Positions 949 through 7,717 of a stretch of 7,717 nucleotides of DNA are shown here, piece after piece. The stretch comes from Deltaproteobacteria bacterium TMED58 (lineage in GTDB: Bacteria; Desulfobacterota_D; UBA1144), in assembly GCA_002167555.2 (NCBI GenBank), contig NHDL02000004.1, forward strand, positions 14,161 to 21,877, read 5' to 3'. The position numbers and the translations under genes were made by a program. Each line of letters starts with the position of its first letter. Within the stretch, counting starts at the first letter, position 1. Below the pieces are notes generated by a model. It was not told the DNA's origin, made no database searches, and saw only the letters and a program-made list of their open reading frames with translations.

Positions 949-2094
949 ATGAGTTTAAGCTTTGATTTTTCAGAAGACCAAAACATGATGAGAGATGCAA
1001 TCAGGACCTTTTGTAAAGAAGAGATTGCTCCATTGGTAGAAGAAGCAGAAGAAAAGGAATCCTTCCCTCAAGAGCTTTTTCCTAAAATGGCTGAAATGGG
1101 TCTTTTAGGAATTTGCTTTGAAGAGAAATATGGTGGTCTTGGGTTAGACAAAGTTACCCAATGTATATTAGCAGAAGAGCTAGGTAGAACCTGTGCAGGT
1201 ATTGCAAAAGGAGTAGCTGCCCACGTTGATCTTGGATCTCTACCAGTGGCCAAATTTGGAACAGAAGAACAAAAAGAGAAATATCTAGTACCGTCAATTG
1301 CCGGAGAAATGATAGGTGCTTTAGCAATAACAGAACCTAATGCTGGTACGGATGCTAGGTCAATTAAAACCAATGCGGTTAAAGATGGTGATTCATGGGT
1401 TATGAATGGAACAAAAACATGGTGCTCAAATGGTGTCATTTGTAATTATGTAATAGTTGCAGCCTATACAAATAAAGAAGATAAAAAAAATGGAATTAGC
1501 ATTTTTATAGTTGACAAGGATACTCCTGGCTTTGAAGTTTCAAGAAAAATTCACAAGTTAGGTCACAGATCTTCTGATGTAGCTGAGTTAGTTTTTGAAA
1601 ATTGCAAACTCCCTGCAGACTCTTTGTTAGGTGGTGAAGAAGGAAAGTTTCAAGCTTTAATGGAAACTTTAATTGCTGCTAGAATTTCTCATGCAATTAA
1701 AAGCGTTGGGCTTGCAACTGCTGCTTTTGAATATGCCCTTCAATATTCCAAAGAAAGAGAGGCATTTGGAAGGCCGATTAATAAGTTTCAAGCTATAAGC
1801 TTTAAGTTGGCGCAAATGGCTGTAAAAATTGAAACTGCAAGACTTCTTGGATACAAAGCCGCATGGCTATATGATCAAGGAAGGCCTTGTGTTAAAGAAG
1901 CTTCTATGGCAAAACTATATTCTGCAGAAGTAGTCCAATGGTGTGCTAGTGAGGGCGTTCAGGTCTTAGGAGGCTATGGATATGCAACTGAATATTCCGC
2001 TGAAAGATTTTATAGAGATGCAAAGCTATCCTCTATCACAGAGGGAACATCAGAAATTCAGCACGTTATAATTGCTAAGGAGCTTGGAATTTAA
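949..2094 (+). CDS. acyl-CoA dehydrogenase (FAD flavoprotein)
   Basis: This predicted soluble 381-residue protein has the usual length for a short/medium-chain-type acyl-CoA dehydrogenase, which oxidises an acyl-CoA to the trans-2-enoyl-CoA and passes electrons to electron-transferring flavoprotein. Both family signatures are intact: AITEPNAGTDARS at residues 126-138, and QVLGGYGY through the RD pair at 338-357. The active-site segment ITEGTSEIQ carries the candidate catalytic glutamate E365, the position used by short- and medium-chain enzymes. YSKEREAFGRPI near 266-277 is the usual FAD/dimer-interface segment. The start at ATG 949 is chosen over an in-frame TTG at 946. It is the first gene of a four-gene operon and ends 49 nt before the thiolase-like gene. 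The substrate cannot be read from sequence. As a complete single-chain enzyme it differs from the two-subunit ChsE1-ChsE2 steroid enzyme. Confidence 0.93.
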   Translation: MSLSFDFSEDQNMMRDAIRTFCKEEIAPLVEEAEEKESFPQELFPKMAEMGLLGICFEEKYGGLGLDKVTQCILAEELGRTCAGIAKGVAAHVDLGSLPVAKFGTEEQKEKYLVPSIAGEMIGALAITEPNAGTDARSIKTNAVKDGDSWVMNGTKTWCSNGVICNYVIVAAYTNKEDKKNGISIFIVDKDTPGFEVSRKIHKLGHRSSDVAELVFENCKLPADSLLGGEEGKFQALMETLIAARISHAIKSVGLATAAFEYALQYSKEREAFGRPINKFQAISFKLAQMAVKIETARLLGYKAAWLYDQGRPCVKEASMAKLYSAEVVQWCASEGVQVLGGYGYATEYSAERFYRDAKLSSITEGTSEIQHVIIAKELGI

Positions 2095-2143
2095 GTATTT
2101 TTTGTTAATCTAAAAGAATAAAAAAATAAAGGAGAATAAGAAA

Positions 2144-3355
2144 ATGGGTACACACATACCAAGTATCGTAGATACAAAAGAATTACTAAAGAAGAATCAG
2201 ATTGGAATTATAGGTGTAGGAGAGACTGAGCAAGGAAAAATTCCTGGAAAAAGTTCTTTTCACTTTTTATCAGAAGCATCTAAGCTTGCAATTGAGGACG
2301 CGGGCCTTCAAAAATCTGATGTTGACGGTGTTATTACTGCTTTCTCATTAGTTGAGGAAACATTTATGCATTGCACTACTTTTGCAGATTATATTGGAAT
2401 CAATCCAAAATACTTTGAATCAGTTGCAATTGGAGGAGCTACAGCGGTTTGGATGACTGCTGCAGCAGCTATGGCAATCAACTCGGGCCAAGCTGAAGTC
2501 GTTTTATGTGTAAGAGGAGATAACACTTTATCAGGAATTTCATCTACTGGAATGATTGCCCTGATTAGAGAAATGTGTCATGGAGAATTTGAGTTTCCAT
2601 TTGGTTTAACAACTCCAGGTGGATATGCTCTTATGGCTCAAAGATATCTTCATGAAACAAAAGGAAAAAGAGAGCATCTACATTCAGTTGCTGTTACAAT
2701 GCGGGAACACGCAAAATTAAAAGAAAATGCAATGATGAAAGATGATTTAACTTTAGATGATGTTATGGGAACTAGACTACTTGCTTCTCCATTAACTAAA
2801 TTCGATTGTTCAATTGTTTCTGATGGTGGAGCTGCTTTCATTGTTACTACAAATGCAAAAGCAAAAGAGCTAGGTTTAAAAAGAGACCCGGTATACCTTC
2901 ATGGAATGGGACAAGGCTTTTCGCATCAATATCTAACTTCATGTGAGGATTTAGATCAAATTTATGGTGCTGTAGAAAAATCAGGTAAAAAAGCATTTGA
3001 TACAGCTGGTATGACTAATGATAATGTTGACATAACATTTTTATATGACTGTTTTACAATAACAACATTACTAGAACTTGAAGGATTGGGAATAGTTCCT
3101 AAAGGTCAAGCTGGTGCTTACGCACTTGAAGGAAGACTTCACAAAGATGCAGATACACCTATTAATACTCATGGAGGTCTTTTGTCACAAGCTCACTTAG
3201 GTGCTATGCACCATGTTATTGAAGCTGTGCTTCAGTTAAGGGGTGAAGCAGGGCCAAGGCAAGTTAAAGATCCAAATGTTGCTTTAGTTCATGGTAACGG
3301 TGGAATTGTTTCAGCTCATAGTACAATTATTTTAGGAAATGAGCCAGTTAGTTAA
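2144..3355 (+). CDS. thiolase-like protein (SCP-x/Ltp2-type, non-classical active site), possible acyl-CoA aldolase
   Basis: This 403-residue member of the thiolase superfamily belongs to the SCP-x/lipid-transfer-like branch. Branch motifs are IGGATAVWMTAAAAM at residues 96-110, YDCFT at 301-305, NTHGGLLSQAH at 341-351 and HGNGG at 383-387. In classical thiolases a nucleophilic cysteine sits where GGAT (97-100) is, and a second cysteine precedes the final GGG-type loop, where this protein has HGNGG. Both are absent, so classical ping-pong thiolysis through an acyl-cysteine is unlikely. In the characterised relative Ltp2, which acts with a DUF35 partner, a remodelled tyrosine-based site performs retro-aldol cleavage. 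Y301 and H351 are candidate catalytic residues here, by inference. A good GGAG site at 2131-2134 lies nine bases before the ATG. The next gene encodes a DUF35 protein, the expected partner, 23 nt downstream. Automatic tools may label it acetyl-CoA acetyltransferase, which I consider doubtful. Confidence 0.85.
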   Translation: MGTHIPSIVDTKELLKKNQIGIIGVGETEQGKIPGKSSFHFLSEASKLAIEDAGLQKSDVDGVITAFSLVEETFMHCTTFADYIGINPKYFESVAIGGATAVWMTAAAAMAINSGQAEVVLCVRGDNTLSGISSTGMIALIREMCHGEFEFPFGLTTPGGYALMAQRYLHETKGKREHLHSVAVTMREHAKLKENAMMKDDLTLDDVMGTRLLASPLTKFDCSIVSDGGAAFIVTTNAKAKELGLKRDPVYLHGMGQGFSHQYLTSCEDLDQIYGAVEKSGKKAFDTAGMTNDNVDITFLYDCFTITTLLELEGLGIVPKGQAGAYALEGRLHKDADTPINTHGGLLSQAHLGAMHHVIEAVLQLRGEAGPRQVKDPNVALVHGNGGIVSAHSTIILGNEPVS

Positions 3356-3366
3356 AAAAAAGAATT

Positions 3367-3371
3367 AGGAG
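3367..3371 (+). promoter_or_regulatory. Shine-Dalgarno site fixing the DUF35 gene start
   Basis: AGGAG lies seven bases before ATG 3379 but only one base before the alternative in-frame TTG at 3373, so the ATG is the start. Confidence 0.75.
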
Positions 3372-3378
3372 ATTGAAT

Positions 3379-3804
3379 ATGTCAGAAGAAAAAAACGAAT
3401 ATACGAAACCACTACCAGATTTTAGACCAGAAACTAAGCCTTTTTGGGATGGAACTAAAGAGCATAAATTACTTTTACCTAAATGTAAGGAAACAGGGAA
3501 AGTTTTCTTTTACCCAAGAGCTATAAGCCCGTTTCCAGGATCAGTTAATATGGACTTCGATTGGGTCGAGTCTTCTGGTAAAGGTACAGTTTGGACATAC
3601 TCTGTTCATTACATGGGCCCTACTAAAGCTTACAAAGGTGAAACATATGTTGTAGCACTTATAGAGCTTGATGACGGAGTCAAGATGATGTCTAATGTTG
3701 TGGATTGTGATCCTGAGAGCGTAACAATTGGAATGGAAGTGGAAGTAGTTTTTGAAGATGCAACTGATGAAGTAACTTTTGCTAAATTTAAACCAGTACA
3801 ATAA
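3379..3804 (+). CDS. DUF35/OB-fold protein, probable partner subunit of the thiolase-like enzyme
   Basis: This 141-residue protein has the layout of the DUF35 family: an N-terminal helix with PFWDGTKEHKL (residues 21-31), a rubredoxin-like zinc-ribbon region (about 31-54), and an OB-fold containing GKGTVWTYSVHY (67-78) and ETYVVALIELDDG (88-100). DUF35 proteins bind thiolase-superfamily enzymes and help form the acyl-CoA site, as in Ltp2-ChsH2 and the archaeal thiolase/HMG-CoA synthase complex. The zinc ribbon is degenerate. Where two Cys-x2-Cys pairs are usual, only C36 (PKCKETGK) remains, and the second pair is replaced around PRAISP (46-51). The one other cysteine, C110, lies in the OB-fold. 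Metal binding is therefore unlikely. It lies between the thiolase-like gene and the MaoC gene, 16 nt before the latter, and is presumably co-translated with them. Confidence 0.85.
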   Translation: MSEEKNEYTKPLPDFRPETKPFWDGTKEHKLLLPKCKETGKVFFYPRAISPFPGSVNMDFDWVESSGKGTVWTYSVHYMGPTKAYKGETYVVALIELDDGVKMMSNVVDCDPESVTIGMEVEVVFEDATDEVTFAKFKPVQ

Positions 3805-3820
3805 GAATAAAGGTGATAAA

Positions 3821-4267
3821 ATGGACGATAAATTATTTTACGAAGATGTTGATGAAGGTACCGAACATGAATCAAGTGGTCGAACAGTAACTGAGGCAGA
3901 TGTTGTAAATTTTGCCGGACTTTCAGCTGACTTTAACAATATGCATATTGACGAAGAGTTTGCTAAAAATACTGTTTTTAAAACCAGAGTCGCTCATGGA
4001 ATGTGCGTTTTGTCGATAGCTACAGGTCTTTGGTTTACAATGCCCAGACTTGCAACAATAGCATTCATGGGATTACAAGATTGGAGATTTTCTGGTGCAG
4101 TTAAACCTGGAGATACAGTTAAAATAACTCGTAAGCTTGTTGAAAAGAAAGAACATAAAAGACCAAACATGGGGTTCTTGAACTGGGAAGTTAATGTTGT
4201 CAACCAAGCAGGCGAGGTGGTACAAAAGGGTATTTGGGTCATTCTTGTTCAAAGAAAAGAAGCTTAA
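3821..4267 (+). CDS. MaoC-family (R)-specific enoyl-CoA hydratase/dehydratase
   Basis: This is a single hot-dog-fold MaoC domain of 148 residues, a normal length for bacterial stand-alone members. They hydrate trans-2-enoyl-CoA to the 3-hydroxyacyl-CoA and usually act as dimers. The hydratase-2 motif is present: AGLSADFNNMHID at residues 32-44, with D37 and H42 as the expected catalytic pair, followed by the conserved VAHGM at 57-61. ATG 3821 is chosen because AGGTG at 3811-3815 lies five bases upstream. The frame is open further upstream to a TTG at 3779, but that would overlap the DUF35 gene and add residues unlike the family. It is the last gene of the operon. It would act between the dehydrogenase and the C-C cleaving thiolase-like/DUF35 pair, like ChsH in steroid side-chain degradation. 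No 3-hydroxyacyl-CoA dehydrogenase gene accompanies it. Confidence 0.9.
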   Translation: MDDKLFYEDVDEGTEHESSGRTVTEADVVNFAGLSADFNNMHIDEEFAKNTVFKTRVAHGMCVLSIATGLWFTMPRLATIAFMGLQDWRFSGAVKPGDTVKITRKLVEKKEHKRPNMGFLNWEVNVVNQAGEVVQKGIWVILVQRKEA

Positions 4268-4410: not shown

Positions 4411-4418
4411 ATATGTAT

Positions 4419-4913
4419 ATGTTAGGATATGTACTTGTACTCGTAGGTTTCGTATTTTTTGCTAACGGTATGACCTTGCTAGGAAAAACCGGTGGTAAAG
4501 AAGTTGGTATGCTTAACGGTGGCGTTGCAGTTTTAATTCTTATAGCGGCTTTCACAGGCGCTGGATTAGGACCTGAAGGTGCTGCTAGTACCACACTTAT
4601 TTCAGTTTTTGCTCTTATCTATGTTATAGCTTTTGGTGTTTTCACCTTAGGTCATGACGGAAAAGGCTTAGGATGGTATTGTTTGTTCGCTACTATAGTT
4701 TTTCTATGGTACGCATCATACTTCTTTGGCGTTGGAGCTATGGAACTAGGTATGTTTAATATTGCGTGGGGTGTTCTTACTTTAGTTGCTTTCTTAGTGT
4801 TAGCACAAGGTAAAGCATTAGGAACTCTTCTTGCTTATTTATTTATAGCAGAAAGTTTTGTAACACTTTTAATTCCAGGCATGAACTTATTACTTAAAGG
4901 AACATTCTTTTAA
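4419..4913 (+). CDS. AmiS/UreI-family urea or short-chain amide channel
   Basis: This is an integral inner-membrane protein of 164 residues with six predicted hydrophobic segments, roughly 2-21, 31-50, 57-79, 83-103, 109-130 and 134-158. The N-terminus MLGYVLVLVGFVFFANG, the GWYCLF segment (85-90), NIAWGVLTLVAF (114-125) and IAESFVTLLIPG (143-154) line up with Helicobacter pylori UreI and the AmiS proteins, including a conserved glutamate (E145). These proteins form passive channels for urea or short amides. The loop between segments 1 and 2 is very short. The loop between segments 2 and 3 (about 48-57) is short and lacks the histidines of the acid-gated H. pylori protein, so an ungated channel is more likely. 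It appears monocistronic, with its own promoter and terminator. No urease, amidase or nitrilase gene lies in the window, so the substrate is unresolved. Confidence 0.9.
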   Translation: MLGYVLVLVGFVFFANGMTLLGKTGGKEVGMLNGGVAVLILIAAFTGAGLGPEGAASTTLISVFALIYVIAFGVFTLGHDGKGLGWYCLFATIVFLWYASYFFGVGAMELGMFNIAWGVLTLVAFLVLAQGKALGTLLAYLFIAESFVTLLIPGMNLLLKGTFF

Positions 4914-4962: not shown

Positions 4963-5550
4963 TTATGGAGCAATCCAATCACTACTCTTTACAACATCAT
5001 TTTCAATAACAAAGCGACATCTAACATGTCCATCATAATTCAAGGACAAATAGTCTATTTCATACGCCTTGCTTACAATTAAACCAAAGATATTGATTCC
5101 TAAATCTTTATTGTCAAAGTCGAGTAAATCATTTGTGAAAGGTTTTTCTAGAATGGAAGATGGCGGTTGCACAGCATAATAACATCTTTTGCTTATCTCT
5201 TGAGAACTATCCCAAATAGACTGGACCTGCTGCCCATGTTCTATTATGTGGGATTTGGACTTAATACGTATTTGTATTTTCTTTTCATAATCGTAGAAAA
5301 GGAGTGTTGTTTTGGGATTTTCTTTAATCTCATTAGCCTTACTAGATCTTAAATCACAATTGCTTCTGAGCAAGAATTTATCAAAGACAACCTCACGTAA
5401 AATAACAATTCTAGACTCCGGGGTTAAGGATGAAGAGGTGGTTGCCATAAAACATAGATGAAAAGGGTGCTTCCTTTGAGTCGCACCAAAATTTAATTCT
5501 TCCCAAATTGAATTAAATATTAAATCAAGATTTGGTTTATTTTTTTCCAT
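4963..5550 (-). CDS. PNPOx-like FMN-binding split-barrel protein (Alr4036-like)
   Basis: This 195-residue protein resembles the pyridoxamine 5'-phosphate oxidase superfamily, probably its Alr4036-like FMN-binding group. Family-type segments in order are FMAT (34-37), SRIVILRE (46-53, FMN-contacting arginine region), CDLRSSKA (65-72), KIQIRIKS (91-98), a tryptophan at 113, and a C-terminal RCRFVIEN ending in DWIAP (177-195). The C-terminal Arg-x-His-Asp-Arg substrate motif of true PdxH is not seen. The corresponding stretch reads NYDGHVRCRF, so vitamin B6 synthesis is doubtful. FMN binding is likely, but the reaction and substrate are unknown. The ATG at 5550 lies inside the end of the aldehyde dehydrogenase gene with a 14-nt overlap and no strong Shine-Dalgarno, which suggests translational coupling. 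It is the last gene before the shared terminator. Confidence 0.75.
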   Translation of the reverse strand: MEKNKPNLDLIFNSIWEELNFGATQRKHPFHLCFMATTSSSLTPESRIVILREVVFDKFLLRSNCDLRSSKANEIKENPKTTLLFYDYEKKIQIRIKSKSHIIEHGQQVQSIWDSSQEISKRCYYAVQPPSSILEKPFTNDLLDFDNKDLGINIFGLIVSKAYEIDYLSLNYDGHVRCRFVIENDVVKSSDWIAP

Positions 5551-6994
5551 ACCACTTTGGCAAAGATCTTCCAGTAAAAATAGAAATATTTTTAACTCTA
5601 AGATATTCTTCTAAGCCCTCTGAGCCCAATTCTTTTCCAAGTCCACTCTGCTTAAAGCCACCATATGGTGTCTCAGGTATAATGCCTCCATATGTATTTA
5701 CCCAAAGATATCCTGCATCAACTTGAGATGCAACTCTAATCGCCCTTGAAATATCTTGCGTCCATACACCACCAGCTAGGCCATAATTAGTTTCATTAGC
5801 CATTGAAATAACTTTATTTTCATCCTCAAATTTCATTATAGCAACAACAGGGCCAAAAACTTCTTCTTTAAACAAAATGTTCTTTGTATCTAAAATTTCA
5901 ATTAATGTTGGAGGAAAATAGTGACCATTTAAACCTTTCTTGATTTTACCTTGAAAGATTATCTTCGACCCTTGTTTAATACTTTTATCTACGCAAGAGG
6001 TTACTTTTTTTAAATGAGCTTTGGAGATTAAAGATCCCATTTCACTATTATTCTTATCAGGCTCATCCATATTAATTTCAGCAATCCTTTTTTTGTAAAG
6101 ACTAATAAATTTATTGTAAATTTTCTTATGAACAAACAATCTTGTTACTGCCGTACAATTTTCGCCCTGATTAAAAAAACCGCCTCTTAAGTTCGCCTCA
6201 AGACAAGAGTCTAAGTTTGCATCATCAAAAATAATATTAGGAGCCTTTCCTCCTAACTCCAATGAGAGTTTGGTCAAGTTATCCGAACTATTCCTTACTA
6301 TAGACTTTCCAACAATTGAAGACCCAGTAAAGGAAATCTTTGCAATTTTTTTATTTTTTACTAGTGCATCCCCAGCCTCTTCACCACTACCAGGGCAGAC
6401 ATTAATTACCCCATCTGGAACGCCACAATCAGAAATAATTTTAGCAAGCTCAATTGTACCGTGTGGGGTCAACTCAGAAGGTTTTACCACGACAGTACAC
6501 CCTGATGCAAGGGCTGGTGCAATTTTCCAAGAAGCTAACAACAAAGGGAAATTCCATGGTAATATCTGTCCAACAACCCCTATTGGTTCTTTTATAGTTA
6601 AGGAAAGAAGTTCTTTGTTGATTACTTGCGAGGTGCCTTTTATTTTTGTAGCTAGCCCAGCATAATACTCAAATGTCCTTATAACACCTCCGAGCTCAAC
6701 CAGCGTACTTTCTTTGATTGGCTTGCCTGTTTCTTGAGTATTTATTAATGATAAAAAGTTAATCTTTTCTTTTAATTGTGCAACTACCCTGAACAAGATT
6801 TGCCCTCTAAATGCAGGAGGAGTTTCTGACCAAGTTTTAAAAGCATTCAGGGCAACGCTACACGCGTGGTCTACATCTTTTTTTGAAGCCAACGAAACCT
6901 CTTGAAGTGGGTCCAAGGTTGCAGGATTTTCTCTTATATAGGTTTTTTTTGAATTTATAAATTTTCCATTTATATATAGAGGTGAACTTCTCAT
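5537..6994 (-). CDS. NAD(P)-dependent aldehyde dehydrogenase (betaine-aldehyde-dehydrogenase-like)
   Basis: This is a full-length aldehyde dehydrogenase of 485 residues, a soluble enzyme that oxidises an aldehyde to the carboxylate with NAD(P)+. All key elements are present: PWNFP with N148 (146-150), KPSE (171-174), FTGS (222-225, nucleotide loop), the general base E246 in LELGGK, the nucleophile C280 in NQGENC, and EVFGP at 378-382. The C-terminal PYGGFKQSGLGKELG and the overall pattern are closest to the betaine-aldehyde/gamma-aminobutyraldehyde type, but the substrate cannot be assigned. The start MRSSPLYINGKF fits the family, where YINGKF lies near the N-terminus. No good Shine-Dalgarno or promoter is visible in the short gap after the preceding terminator. 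It is coupled by a 14-nt overlap to the FMN split-barrel gene. A role with the acyl-CoA operon is possible but unproven. Confidence 0.92.
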   Translation of the reverse strand: MRSSPLYINGKFINSKKTYIRENPATLDPLQEVSLASKKDVDHACSVALNAFKTWSETPPAFRGQILFRVVAQLKEKINFLSLINTQETGKPIKESTLVELGGVIRTFEYYAGLATKIKGTSQVINKELLSLTIKEPIGVVGQILPWNFPLLLASWKIAPALASGCTVVVKPSELTPHGTIELAKIISDCGVPDGVINVCPGSGEEAGDALVKNKKIAKISFTGSSIVGKSIVRNSSDNLTKLSLELGGKAPNIIFDDANLDSCLEANLRGGFFNQGENCTAVTRLFVHKKIYNKFISLYKKRIAEINMDEPDKNNSEMGSLISKAHLKKVTSCVDKSIKQGSKIIFQGKIKKGLNGHYFPPTLIEILDTKNILFKEEVFGPVVAIMKFEDENKVISMANETNYGLAGGVWTQDISRAIRVASQVDAGYLWVNTYGGIIPETPYGGFKQSGLGKELGSEGLEEYLRVKNISIFTGRSLPKWYGKK

Positions 6995-7067: not shown

Positions 7068-7717
7068 TTAAGCACCTGGATAGTATGGTGTTAAGAATCT
7101 GTGTCTCATTGTATATTTGTAAGGAGTTGAGAATAGAAGATGTTTTGCAGTATCATCATCATTTCTTTCAACTCTTTTCTCCCATACAATTGATGCTGGT
7201 GGAATAATTAAGTTAAATGTGAACGAAATTAAACCATGAACAGTTACGTTACCTAATGAGCCTCCCATGAAGTCAAAAGGTGTTCCAGCCATATACCATG
7301 ATCTTACGTCATCACCAGTTGCAGTTCTAACAGAACTTGGATCCAATTGGAATCTATGTCCTGTACCGAACTGTGGTGGTAACTCAGAACCAAGGTATGT
7401 AACTTGGTGGTCACTGTATGCAACACTTGGATGAGTTGTGATTCTGTAGTTTAATCTGCCCCAGTCTGTTTTACCGTAGAATGTTGGTTTAACAGAAACT
7501 GGTTTATCAGAATAACGACCATTTGCTGAATGAAGAACATAACCTCTTCTTTCCATTGTCATGTTGAAATAGTTGTCATTTGTTCCATGCTCATAAGCAG
7601 CAATGTATGCAGCTTTTTTTGGAAATCCGAAAGGTTCTCTACCAGCAAAAATTGGTGAGTCGTTTGAAAGGTACATATGTGGATAATATCCACCTTTCCA
7701 AACCTGAGCGTCTGCTC
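7068..7717 (-). CDS. acetoacetate-decarboxylase-family protein, 5' end beyond window
   Basis: The frame stays open from the stop at 7068 to the right edge, so the gene starts outside the window. The internal ATG at 7676 is not the start, because the codons upstream of it (reading ADAQVWKGGYYPH) continue the family alignment. GGYYPHMYLSNDSPIFAGRE followed by GFPKK matches the clostridial acetoacetate decarboxylase region GDYLHMMYLDN through GRE and YPKK. The PKK lysine pair (codons at 7614-7619) corresponds to the Schiff-base lysine and its neighbour, so imine chemistry is plausible. About 200 residues follow the MYL motif, roughly 50 more than in the clostridial enzyme, so this is a longer family branch whose members need not decarboxylate acetoacetate. 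No signal or membrane segment is visible in the part seen. It is transcribed separately from the aldehyde dehydrogenase by virtue of the terminator. Confidence 0.82.
   Translation of the reverse strand, partial: ADAQVWKGGYYPHMYLSNDSPIFAGREPFGFPKKAAYIAAYEHGTNDNYFNMTMERRGYVLHSANGRYSDKPVSVKPTFYGKTDWGRLNYRITTHPSVAYSDHQVTYLGSELPPQFGTGHRFQLDPSSVRTATGDDVRSWYMAGTPFDFMGGSLGNVTVHGLISFTFNLIIPPASIVWEKRVERNDDDTAKHLLFSTPYKYTMRHRFLTPYYPGA

Follow-up and report, generated by a model that had tools for sequence, protein, structure and literature searches.

Within the literature searched, thiolase-fold retro-aldol cleavage of acyl-CoAs has been demonstrated only for steroid side chains, and the papers on DUF35/thiolase/MaoC retro-aldol chemistry are steroid papers. 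In CtSal, the aldolase of Comamonas testosteroni, Tyr302 and Cys304 are experimentally essential for retro-aldol cleavage; Y302F retains almost no activity, and the activity of C304A, C304S, and C304H is nil (PMC12329534). Within the same literature no paper joins Dadabacteria with acyl-CoA dehydrogenase, and the operon enzymes described here do not appear in the marine Dadabacteria paper.

Organization of the operon

The window, that is, the whole stretch of 7,717 nucleotides analysed here, belongs to a streamlined marine Candidatus Dadabacteria with a small genome (~1 Mb, 92.8% complete), in agreement with the non-actinobacterial origin proposed in the preliminary description. Open reading frames and Pfam assignments, the latter unambiguous for all four genes, likewise confirm the operon claimed there: acyl-CoA dehydrogenase, thiolase-like, DUF35, and MaoC genes lie on the forward strand, separated by 49, 23, and 16 nt. 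The acyl-CoA dehydrogenase (ACAD; 949-2094, +; 381 aa from the ATG at 949; PF00441/02770/02771) is a Bcd/SCAD-like single chain. Its catalytic Glu lies in ITEGTSEIQ, a motif kept in class homologues, and its best PDB matches, 4l1f and 5ol2, are of the butyryl-CoA/SCAD type. Steroid ACADs (ChsE) are heteromers of two unlike subunits, whereas the operon holds one full-length ACAD gene.

The second gene (2144-3355, +; 403 aa; PF22691, E 1e-48) encodes a thiolase-superfamily protein, THL1, the candidate retro-aldolase. Its presumed partner is a DUF35/OB_ChsH2_C protein (3379-3804, +; 141 aa; PF01796 and PF12172), whose zinc ribbon is down to one Cys and whose best PDB relatives are 9myr_B, 6esq_E, and 6ok1_B. 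The single-domain MaoC hydratase (3821-4267, +; 148 aa; PF01575) is the only MaoC in the host genome and carries the dyad D37/H42; this Asp/His dyad occurs in every homologue, as ADFNNMH, ADYNNMH, or GDFNNMH. Both the single-chain dehydrogenase and the stand-alone DUF35 anticipated from the sequence are present as separate ORFs.

Downstream, a gene for an AmiS/UreI-family membrane protein (4413-4913, +) starts after a 145-nt gap from MaoC, possibly as a separate transcript, and adjoins the operon class-wide. On the reverse strand lie a 485-aa aldehyde dehydrogenase (5537-6994, -), a neighbour kept in the host family only, and the acetoacetate-decarboxylase-like ADC1 (7068-7717, -), which is truncated by the contig end; ADC1 keeps its Lys-Lys pair, and its N-terminal part is located at G000 C5:3-131. 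Elsewhere in the genome, a second ACAD adjoins malyl-CoA-lyase-like and mutase-like genes and resembles an ethylmalonyl-CoA-type module. We rejected a role of the window's MaoC in serving this second ACAD; the only link is that it is the genome's only MaoC.

Active site and relationships of THL1

G98 of THL1 (IGGAT) aligns with the nucleophilic Cys of thiolases. The Cys-thiolases 6esq and 7yvy read ACASG at the same position, while Sal and Ltp2 have Gly; THL1 thus lacks the residue that marks a Cys-dependent thiolase. Additionally, the Y301-D-C303-F motif is invariant in class homologues, and in the alignment Tyr301 and Cys303 are the equivalents of CtSal Tyr302 and Cys304. The Sal supporting residues Gln161 (oxyanion hole), Gln347, and Gln352 are replaced by Thr157, Leu346, and His351, and His351 is also where Ltp2 has its acid, Tyr344. 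Ltp2 combines YDHF with Tyr344, and THL1 combines YDCF with His351.

The tree contains a 100/100 split between THL1, Sal, Ltp2, and 4u4e on one side and the Cys-thiolases on the other. Inside this superclade, THL1 falls in its own sub-clade with non-steroid homologues, apart from Sal, which is on a long branch, and Ltp2. The predicted structure of THL1 is of medium quality (mean pLDDT 68), and we used it for fold-match ranking, leaving residue geometry aside; the top ranks were 4u4e, Ltp2, Sal, and TbSLP. Collectively, sequence, tree, and fold comparisons place THL1 nearer to Sal and Ltp2 than to the Cys-thiolases. The lost thiolase nucleophile, together with the active-site pair of a steroid aldolase, suggests that THL1 is probably a reverse-aldol enzyme. 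Superclade relatives of THL1 carry YDSF or YDAF and, given that C304S and C304A abolish Sal activity, the chemistry of the superclade may not be uniform.

Conservation of the operon

The gene order ACAD-THL-DUF35-MaoC, or THL-DUF35-MaoC without ACAD, recurs at most of the 28 loci examined in the class, and a DUF35 gene accompanies THL1 in 27 of the 28 loci counted. Because this order recurs across the class and YDCF is invariant, the arrangement is not due to chance. THL1 homologues across the class share 72-97% identity, and THL1 and MaoC are the most conserved operon genes; ACAD is missing beside THL1 in family f3 and in most of f4. The class-wide neighbourhood also holds a second thiolase/DUF35 pair, THL2-DUF35b, in which THL2 has its Cys, as well as genes for Sir2, a nitroreductase, and two ADC-like proteins that carry a Lys-Lys pair.

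In homologous clusters of other phyla, THL1 occurs mostly with MaoC, a CoA ligase or CoA transferase, and ACAD. Plasmids from Pseudomonadota, Actinomycetota, and haloarchaea carry homologues as well, and SDRs lie near several of these copies. For high-GC loci, genes were located by tblastn. In another class surveyed, close relatives were present in 2 of 113 genomes, and the operon is therefore sporadic there. No relatives were found among viral contigs.

Absence of 3-hydroxyacyl-CoA dehydrogenase

No 3-hydroxyacyl-CoA dehydrogenase (3HCDH) is encoded in the operon or in the whole window, and PF02737 has no match in the entire host genome, at 92.8% completeness. The host's entire family is without a true 3HCDH, whereas most sister families have one: PF02737 gives weak partial Rossmann matches or nothing in families f1 and f3, and real 3HCDH enzymes occur in f2 and f4-f8. 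Where THL1 and 3HCDH coexist (21 genomes), they lie on separate contigs or, in G030, ~770 kb apart. Moreover, 3HCDH is never adjacent to the class-level THL-DUF35-MaoC loci, and no gene annotated as 3HCDH lies within 8 kb of the homologous clusters in other phyla. The missing oxidation gene noted in the preliminary description is thus absent from operon and window and, as PF02737, from the 92.8%-complete genome, and the neighbourhood survey suggested there extends the pattern to homologous loci. Its caveat that the enzyme could be encoded elsewhere holds in part: PF02737 is absent genome-wide, but SDRs are present elsewhere, for example at C5:248365.

Proposed pathway and alternatives

With a probability of about 0.57, we interpret the operon as a three- to four-enzyme acyl-CoA-shortening module without a 3-hydroxyacyl-CoA oxidation step, probably non-steroid, in which THL1 probably cleaves acyl-CoA by reverse aldol chemistry and not by the usual beta-oxidation. 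ACAD would desaturate an acyl-CoA, and MaoC, through Asp37/His42, would hydrate the enoyl product to 3-hydroxyacyl-CoA. In THL1, Tyr301 would then accept the proton of the hydroxyl group, and the enolate would be protonated by Cys303, possibly together with His351; the products would be an aldehyde or ketone and acetyl-CoA or another short acyl-CoA. The adjoining aldehyde dehydrogenase could take up and oxidise an aldehyde product. We infer that THL1 and DUF35 form a complex, as well as the direction of the module, each individual reaction, and the substrate. The retro-aldolase activity first proposed from the sequence thus gains the nucleophile loss and the CtSal Tyr/Cys pair in its favour, and is still a prediction.

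Normal beta-oxidation, with the oxidising enzyme supplied in trans, appears unlikely. MaoC hydratases of this type usually yield the (R) isomer, and the resulting (R)-3-hydroxyacyl-CoA would be oxidised by a PhaB/FabG-like SDR and cleaved by a BktB-like thiolase, with THL1 as an auxiliary or scaffold. The genome encodes seven SDRs, of which the one at C5:248365 best resembles models of acetoacetyl-CoA reductase/FabG, and also a canonical BktB-like thiolase at C5:200496. However, neither that SDR nor the thiolase is encoded close to the host operon, and this route leaves unexplained the intact Tyr/Cys dyad of THL1 and its top conservation, shared with MaoC. Furthermore, the operon's own "thiolase" would be unable to use the SDR product by the normal mechanism. 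It is also improbable that THL1-DUF35 is synthetic, or a decarboxylase, acyltransferase, or condensing enzyme (compare the PhlABC acylases and the weak malonyl-CoA decarboxylase TbSLP), acting with the linked THL2-DUF35b and two ADC-like proteins. The class-wide presence of that Cys-bearing pair, the Lys-Lys proteins, Sir2, and nitroreductase would fit such a role, as would PhlC in the THL1 fold-search list; nevertheless, PhlABC-type acylases and Cys-thiolases work through the nucleophilic Cys that THL1 lacks, and the linked ACAD and MaoC suit degradation better. CtSal, with the same dyad, does not decarboxylate malonyl-CoA (PMC12329534).

That the operon truly degrades steroid or bile-acid side chains, as ChsE-ChsH-Ltp2 or Shy-Sal do, is very improbable, although the enzyme-family combination is identical and, among characterised proteins, steroid enzymes are the nearest relatives. 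The ~1 Mb genome has two ACADs and one MaoC, and KshA_C, the single steroid ring-degradation marker searched, has no match in it (92.8% complete). The operon ACAD is Bcd-like and not of the heteromeric ChsE type, and THL1 clades with non-steroid homologues.

If the aldolase reading is true, many genes that now carry the annotation "acetyl-CoA acetyltransferase" or "lipid-transfer protein" would encode aldolases. The operon is highly conserved throughout the class, in an ocean lineage that is cosmopolitan and streamlined, and the aldolase reading gives a testable account of why a lineage without FadB/Hbd retains ACAD and MaoC. A broader and doubtful extension is a phylum-wide non-steroid pathway of two thiolase/DUF35 pairs (one a retro-aldolase), MaoC, two ADC-like enzymes, and an AmiS/UreI transporter, retained by streamlined ocean Dadabacteria after FadB/Hbd loss. 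The remaining acyl-CoA catabolism would then proceed via C-C cleavage without 3-hydroxyacyl oxidation, with substrates that are perhaps beta-branched, their tertiary alcohols not being oxidisable.

Comparison with known systems

Similar to Ltp2-ChsH2(DUF35) of actinobacterial cholesterol catabolism (PDB 6ok1), THL1 has the fold, the Gly at the nucleophile position, and the catalytic Tyr of YDxF, and the operon follows a dehydrogenase-hydratase-aldolase logic without oxidation. In contrast, YDHF is replaced by YDCF and the general acid Tyr344 by His in THL1, the ACAD consists of a single chain, and the hydratase is one MaoC domain with its own dyad. The parallel with ChsE/ChsH/Ltp2 drawn in the preliminary description therefore stands for the lack of an oxidation gene in the operon and its homologues, but the active site is nearer to Sal YDC[YF], and ACAD is not universal. 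The compact form with a stand-alone DUF35 is not new either: Atf1-ChsH4 of Mycolicibacterium neoaurum, compared by description and not by sequence, already combines a Sal-like aldolase with a stand-alone DUF35 in one operon, although its substrate is a sterol and its operon contains ChsE6 and KstR3 and no MaoC (PMC10398937).

TbSLP, the SCP2-thiolase-like protein of Trypanosoma brucei (PDB 5ab4-7), shares YDCF, the fold, and a proposed aldolase function, but it is eukaryotic, has ~29% identity, and is without a DUF35/MaoC operon. The putative thiolase 4u4e of Sphaerobacter thermophilus is the best sequence and fold match and, as in THL1, has Gly for the nucleophile and His where Ltp2 has Tyr344, but it has YDSF where THL1 has YDCF. 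Finally, the bile-acid aldolase CtSal-CtShy(DUF35) (PDB 9myr, PMC12329534) has Gly for the nucleophile, a Tyr-Asp-Cys motif with both catalytic residues, a DUF35 partner, a MaoC hydratase that supplies the substrate, and an aldehyde dehydrogenase later in the pathway. In the Dadabacteria operon, however, DUF35 and MaoC are separate chains, the DUF35 zinc site is largely lost, THL1 has His351 for Gln352 and Thr/Leu for Gln161/Gln347, and the protein lies in a separate clade with no steroid context. Collectively, the retro-aldolase reading is well supported in kind, with a resemblance to Sal more than to Ltp2 and a context that is not steroidal.

Operon and active site

The four genes recognized in the preliminary description were confirmed on one strand, encoding an acyl-CoA dehydrogenase (ACAD, 949–2094), the 403-residue thiolase-like protein THL1 (2144–3355), a DUF35 protein (3379–3804), and a MaoC protein (3821–4267), with gaps of 49, 23, and 16 nt. 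Their products carry the Pfam domains ACAD, thiolase C-terminal (PF22691), OB_ChsH2_C with zf-ChsH2, and MaoC, respectively, and none of the four meets an NCBIfam cut-off.

THL1 and its homologues were aligned (MAFFT) with the bile-acid aldolase Sal (CtSal, 9myr), the steroid aldolase Ltp2 (6ok1), the putative thiolase 4u4e, and two Cys-thiolases (6esq, 7yvy). The nucleophile position is Gly98 in THL1 and Gly in 11/11 homologues, as in Sal and Ltp2; both Cys-thiolases have Cys there, and so does THL2, a second thiolase of the host. Moreover, the thiolase HDCF motif is replaced by Y301-D-C303-F, which is invariant throughout the class. In CtSal, Y302F retains only trace activity, C304A, C304S, and C304H are inactive, and Gly at the nucleophile position was concluded to rule out thiolysis (PMC12329534). 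A Cys-dependent thiolase is very unlikely; a retro-aldolase is the best-supported reading of THL1, at a probability of roughly 0.57, and its substrate is probably not a steroid.

Oxidation step

The 3-hydroxyacyl-CoA dehydrogenase domain (PF02737) has no match in the host genome (92.8% complete). The host family (14 genomes) and family f3 show none or weak partial matches to other Rossmann proteins (≤ ~25 bits), while nearly all f2 and f4–f8 genomes have strong matches (E 1e-24 to 1e-69); the true enzyme is kept by sister families and missing from all host-family genomes and f3 (G017, G020). Among the 21 genomes having both THL1 and a strong match, none has them on one contig save the single-chromosome genome G030, where they lie ~770 kb apart. 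Some genomes in the class do have canonical thiolases next to the dehydrogenase, G015 C8, G033 C97, and G050 C149 among them.

Outside the class, ten annotated plasmid clusters encode homologues 37–52% identical to THL1, and 0/10 have an annotated 3-hydroxyacyl-CoA dehydrogenase within 8 kb; several contain SDR genes outside the core. In a Desulfovirgula MAG (55% identity), an AMP-binding CoA ligase comes after THL1-DUF35-MaoC and a TRAP transporter lies alongside; the dehydrogenases of this MAG are on other contigs. The preliminary description would have been contradicted by homologous operons consistently including this dehydrogenase; none was found in the class loci, plasmid clusters, or Desulfovirgula locus. 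As evidence for a pathway lacking oxidation, this survey is limited because the host encodes seven SDRs, one PhaB/FabG-like.

Conservation and genomic context

The window is C2:14161–21877 of a 1.01-Mb genome; streamlining is known for marine Dadabacteria (PMC8115339). The host was rightly described as non-actinobacterial, since THL1 relatives at 71–97% identity in a scan of named genomes fall almost only in Candidatus Dadabacteria records or in MAGs that are labelled Thermodesulfobacteriota or Deltaproteobacteria or bear no taxon name. A contig labelled Ruegeria sp. MAG (L096), with the Dadabacteria cluster in identical gene order (73% identity), is probably a binning contaminant.

THL1 occurs in 11/14 host-family genomes (host counted) at 86–97% identity and in other families at 72–75%. 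Within the host-family operon, THL1 is 88–96% and MaoC 86–97% identical, the adjoining genes being far less conserved (MnmE 46–67%, PNPOx 39–60%, ALDH 62–78%). Clustered ORFs gave 28 loci for THL1, 27 for DUF35, 25 for MaoC, 22 for AmiS/UreI, and 18 for ACAD; ACAD does not adjoin THL1 in f3 and most f4 loci, and several f4 loci have a DnaD/HTH-like gene in its place. The AmiS/UreI-family membrane protein (4413–4913) adjoins the operon throughout the class, and another lies ~6–7 kb from the Desulfovirgula homologue. A second host ACAD adjoins malyl-CoA-lyase/CitE-like and methylmalonyl-CoA-mutase-like genes (together L125 5572–9768; G000 C5:179571–183767, minus strand), a grouping that recalls an ethylmalonyl-CoA-type module. 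The host genome has no MaoC other than that of the window.

Class-wide, the operon is linked to two acetoacetate decarboxylase (ADC)-like proteins, Sir2, a nitroreductase, a second DUF35 (DUF35b), and THL2, which keeps its Cys nucleophile. In the host, ADC2, Sir2, nitroreductase, DUF35b, and THL2 start contig C5 (L038 1–4680; G000 C5:1–4680). ADC1 is cut by the window's right end (7717, the end of G000 C2), with its N-terminal 43 residues at C5:3–131 and residues 111–324 at the window's end. Because its pieces lie on both contigs, C2 very probably adjoins C5 in the genome, with ~200 nt probably missing between them. The tandem ADC-like proteins (7068–7717; L038 167–1138; L041 12414–14427) are conserved together with the operon and retain the FPKK Lys-Lys pair; they have ~323 residues, whereas solved ADCs have 244–255.

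Comparison with known aldolases

In the tree, Sal, Ltp2, 4u4e, and THL1 with its homologues separate from the Cys-thiolases (100/100), Sal and Ltp2 being on long branches; THL1 groups with Miltoncostaea and Desulfovirgula (97/94). The predicted THL1 model (pLDDT 68) matches 4u4e, Ltp2, Sal, and TbSLP ahead of true thiolases.

Among the partners, MaoC keeps the Asp/His dyad needed for hydration (PMC11321319), and ACAD its catalytic Glu. The closest relatives of the operon DUF35 are those of Sal, an archaeal thiolase, and Ltp2. Three of its four zinc Cys are gone in the host family (one left) and all four in most other Dadabacteria; one f5 lineage (L061) has them intact (CxxC...CxxC). A stand-alone DUF35 beside a Sal-like aldolase is already known, given the M. 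neoaurum precedent (PMC10398937). Finally, THL1 has His351 where Ltp2 has its second residue, Tyr344, and Sal has Gln352; Gln161 and Gln347 of Sal are replaced by Thr157 and Leu346. Aligned with Sal and Ltp2, THL1 is, at the sequence level, Sal-like in its dyad with supporting residues of its own.
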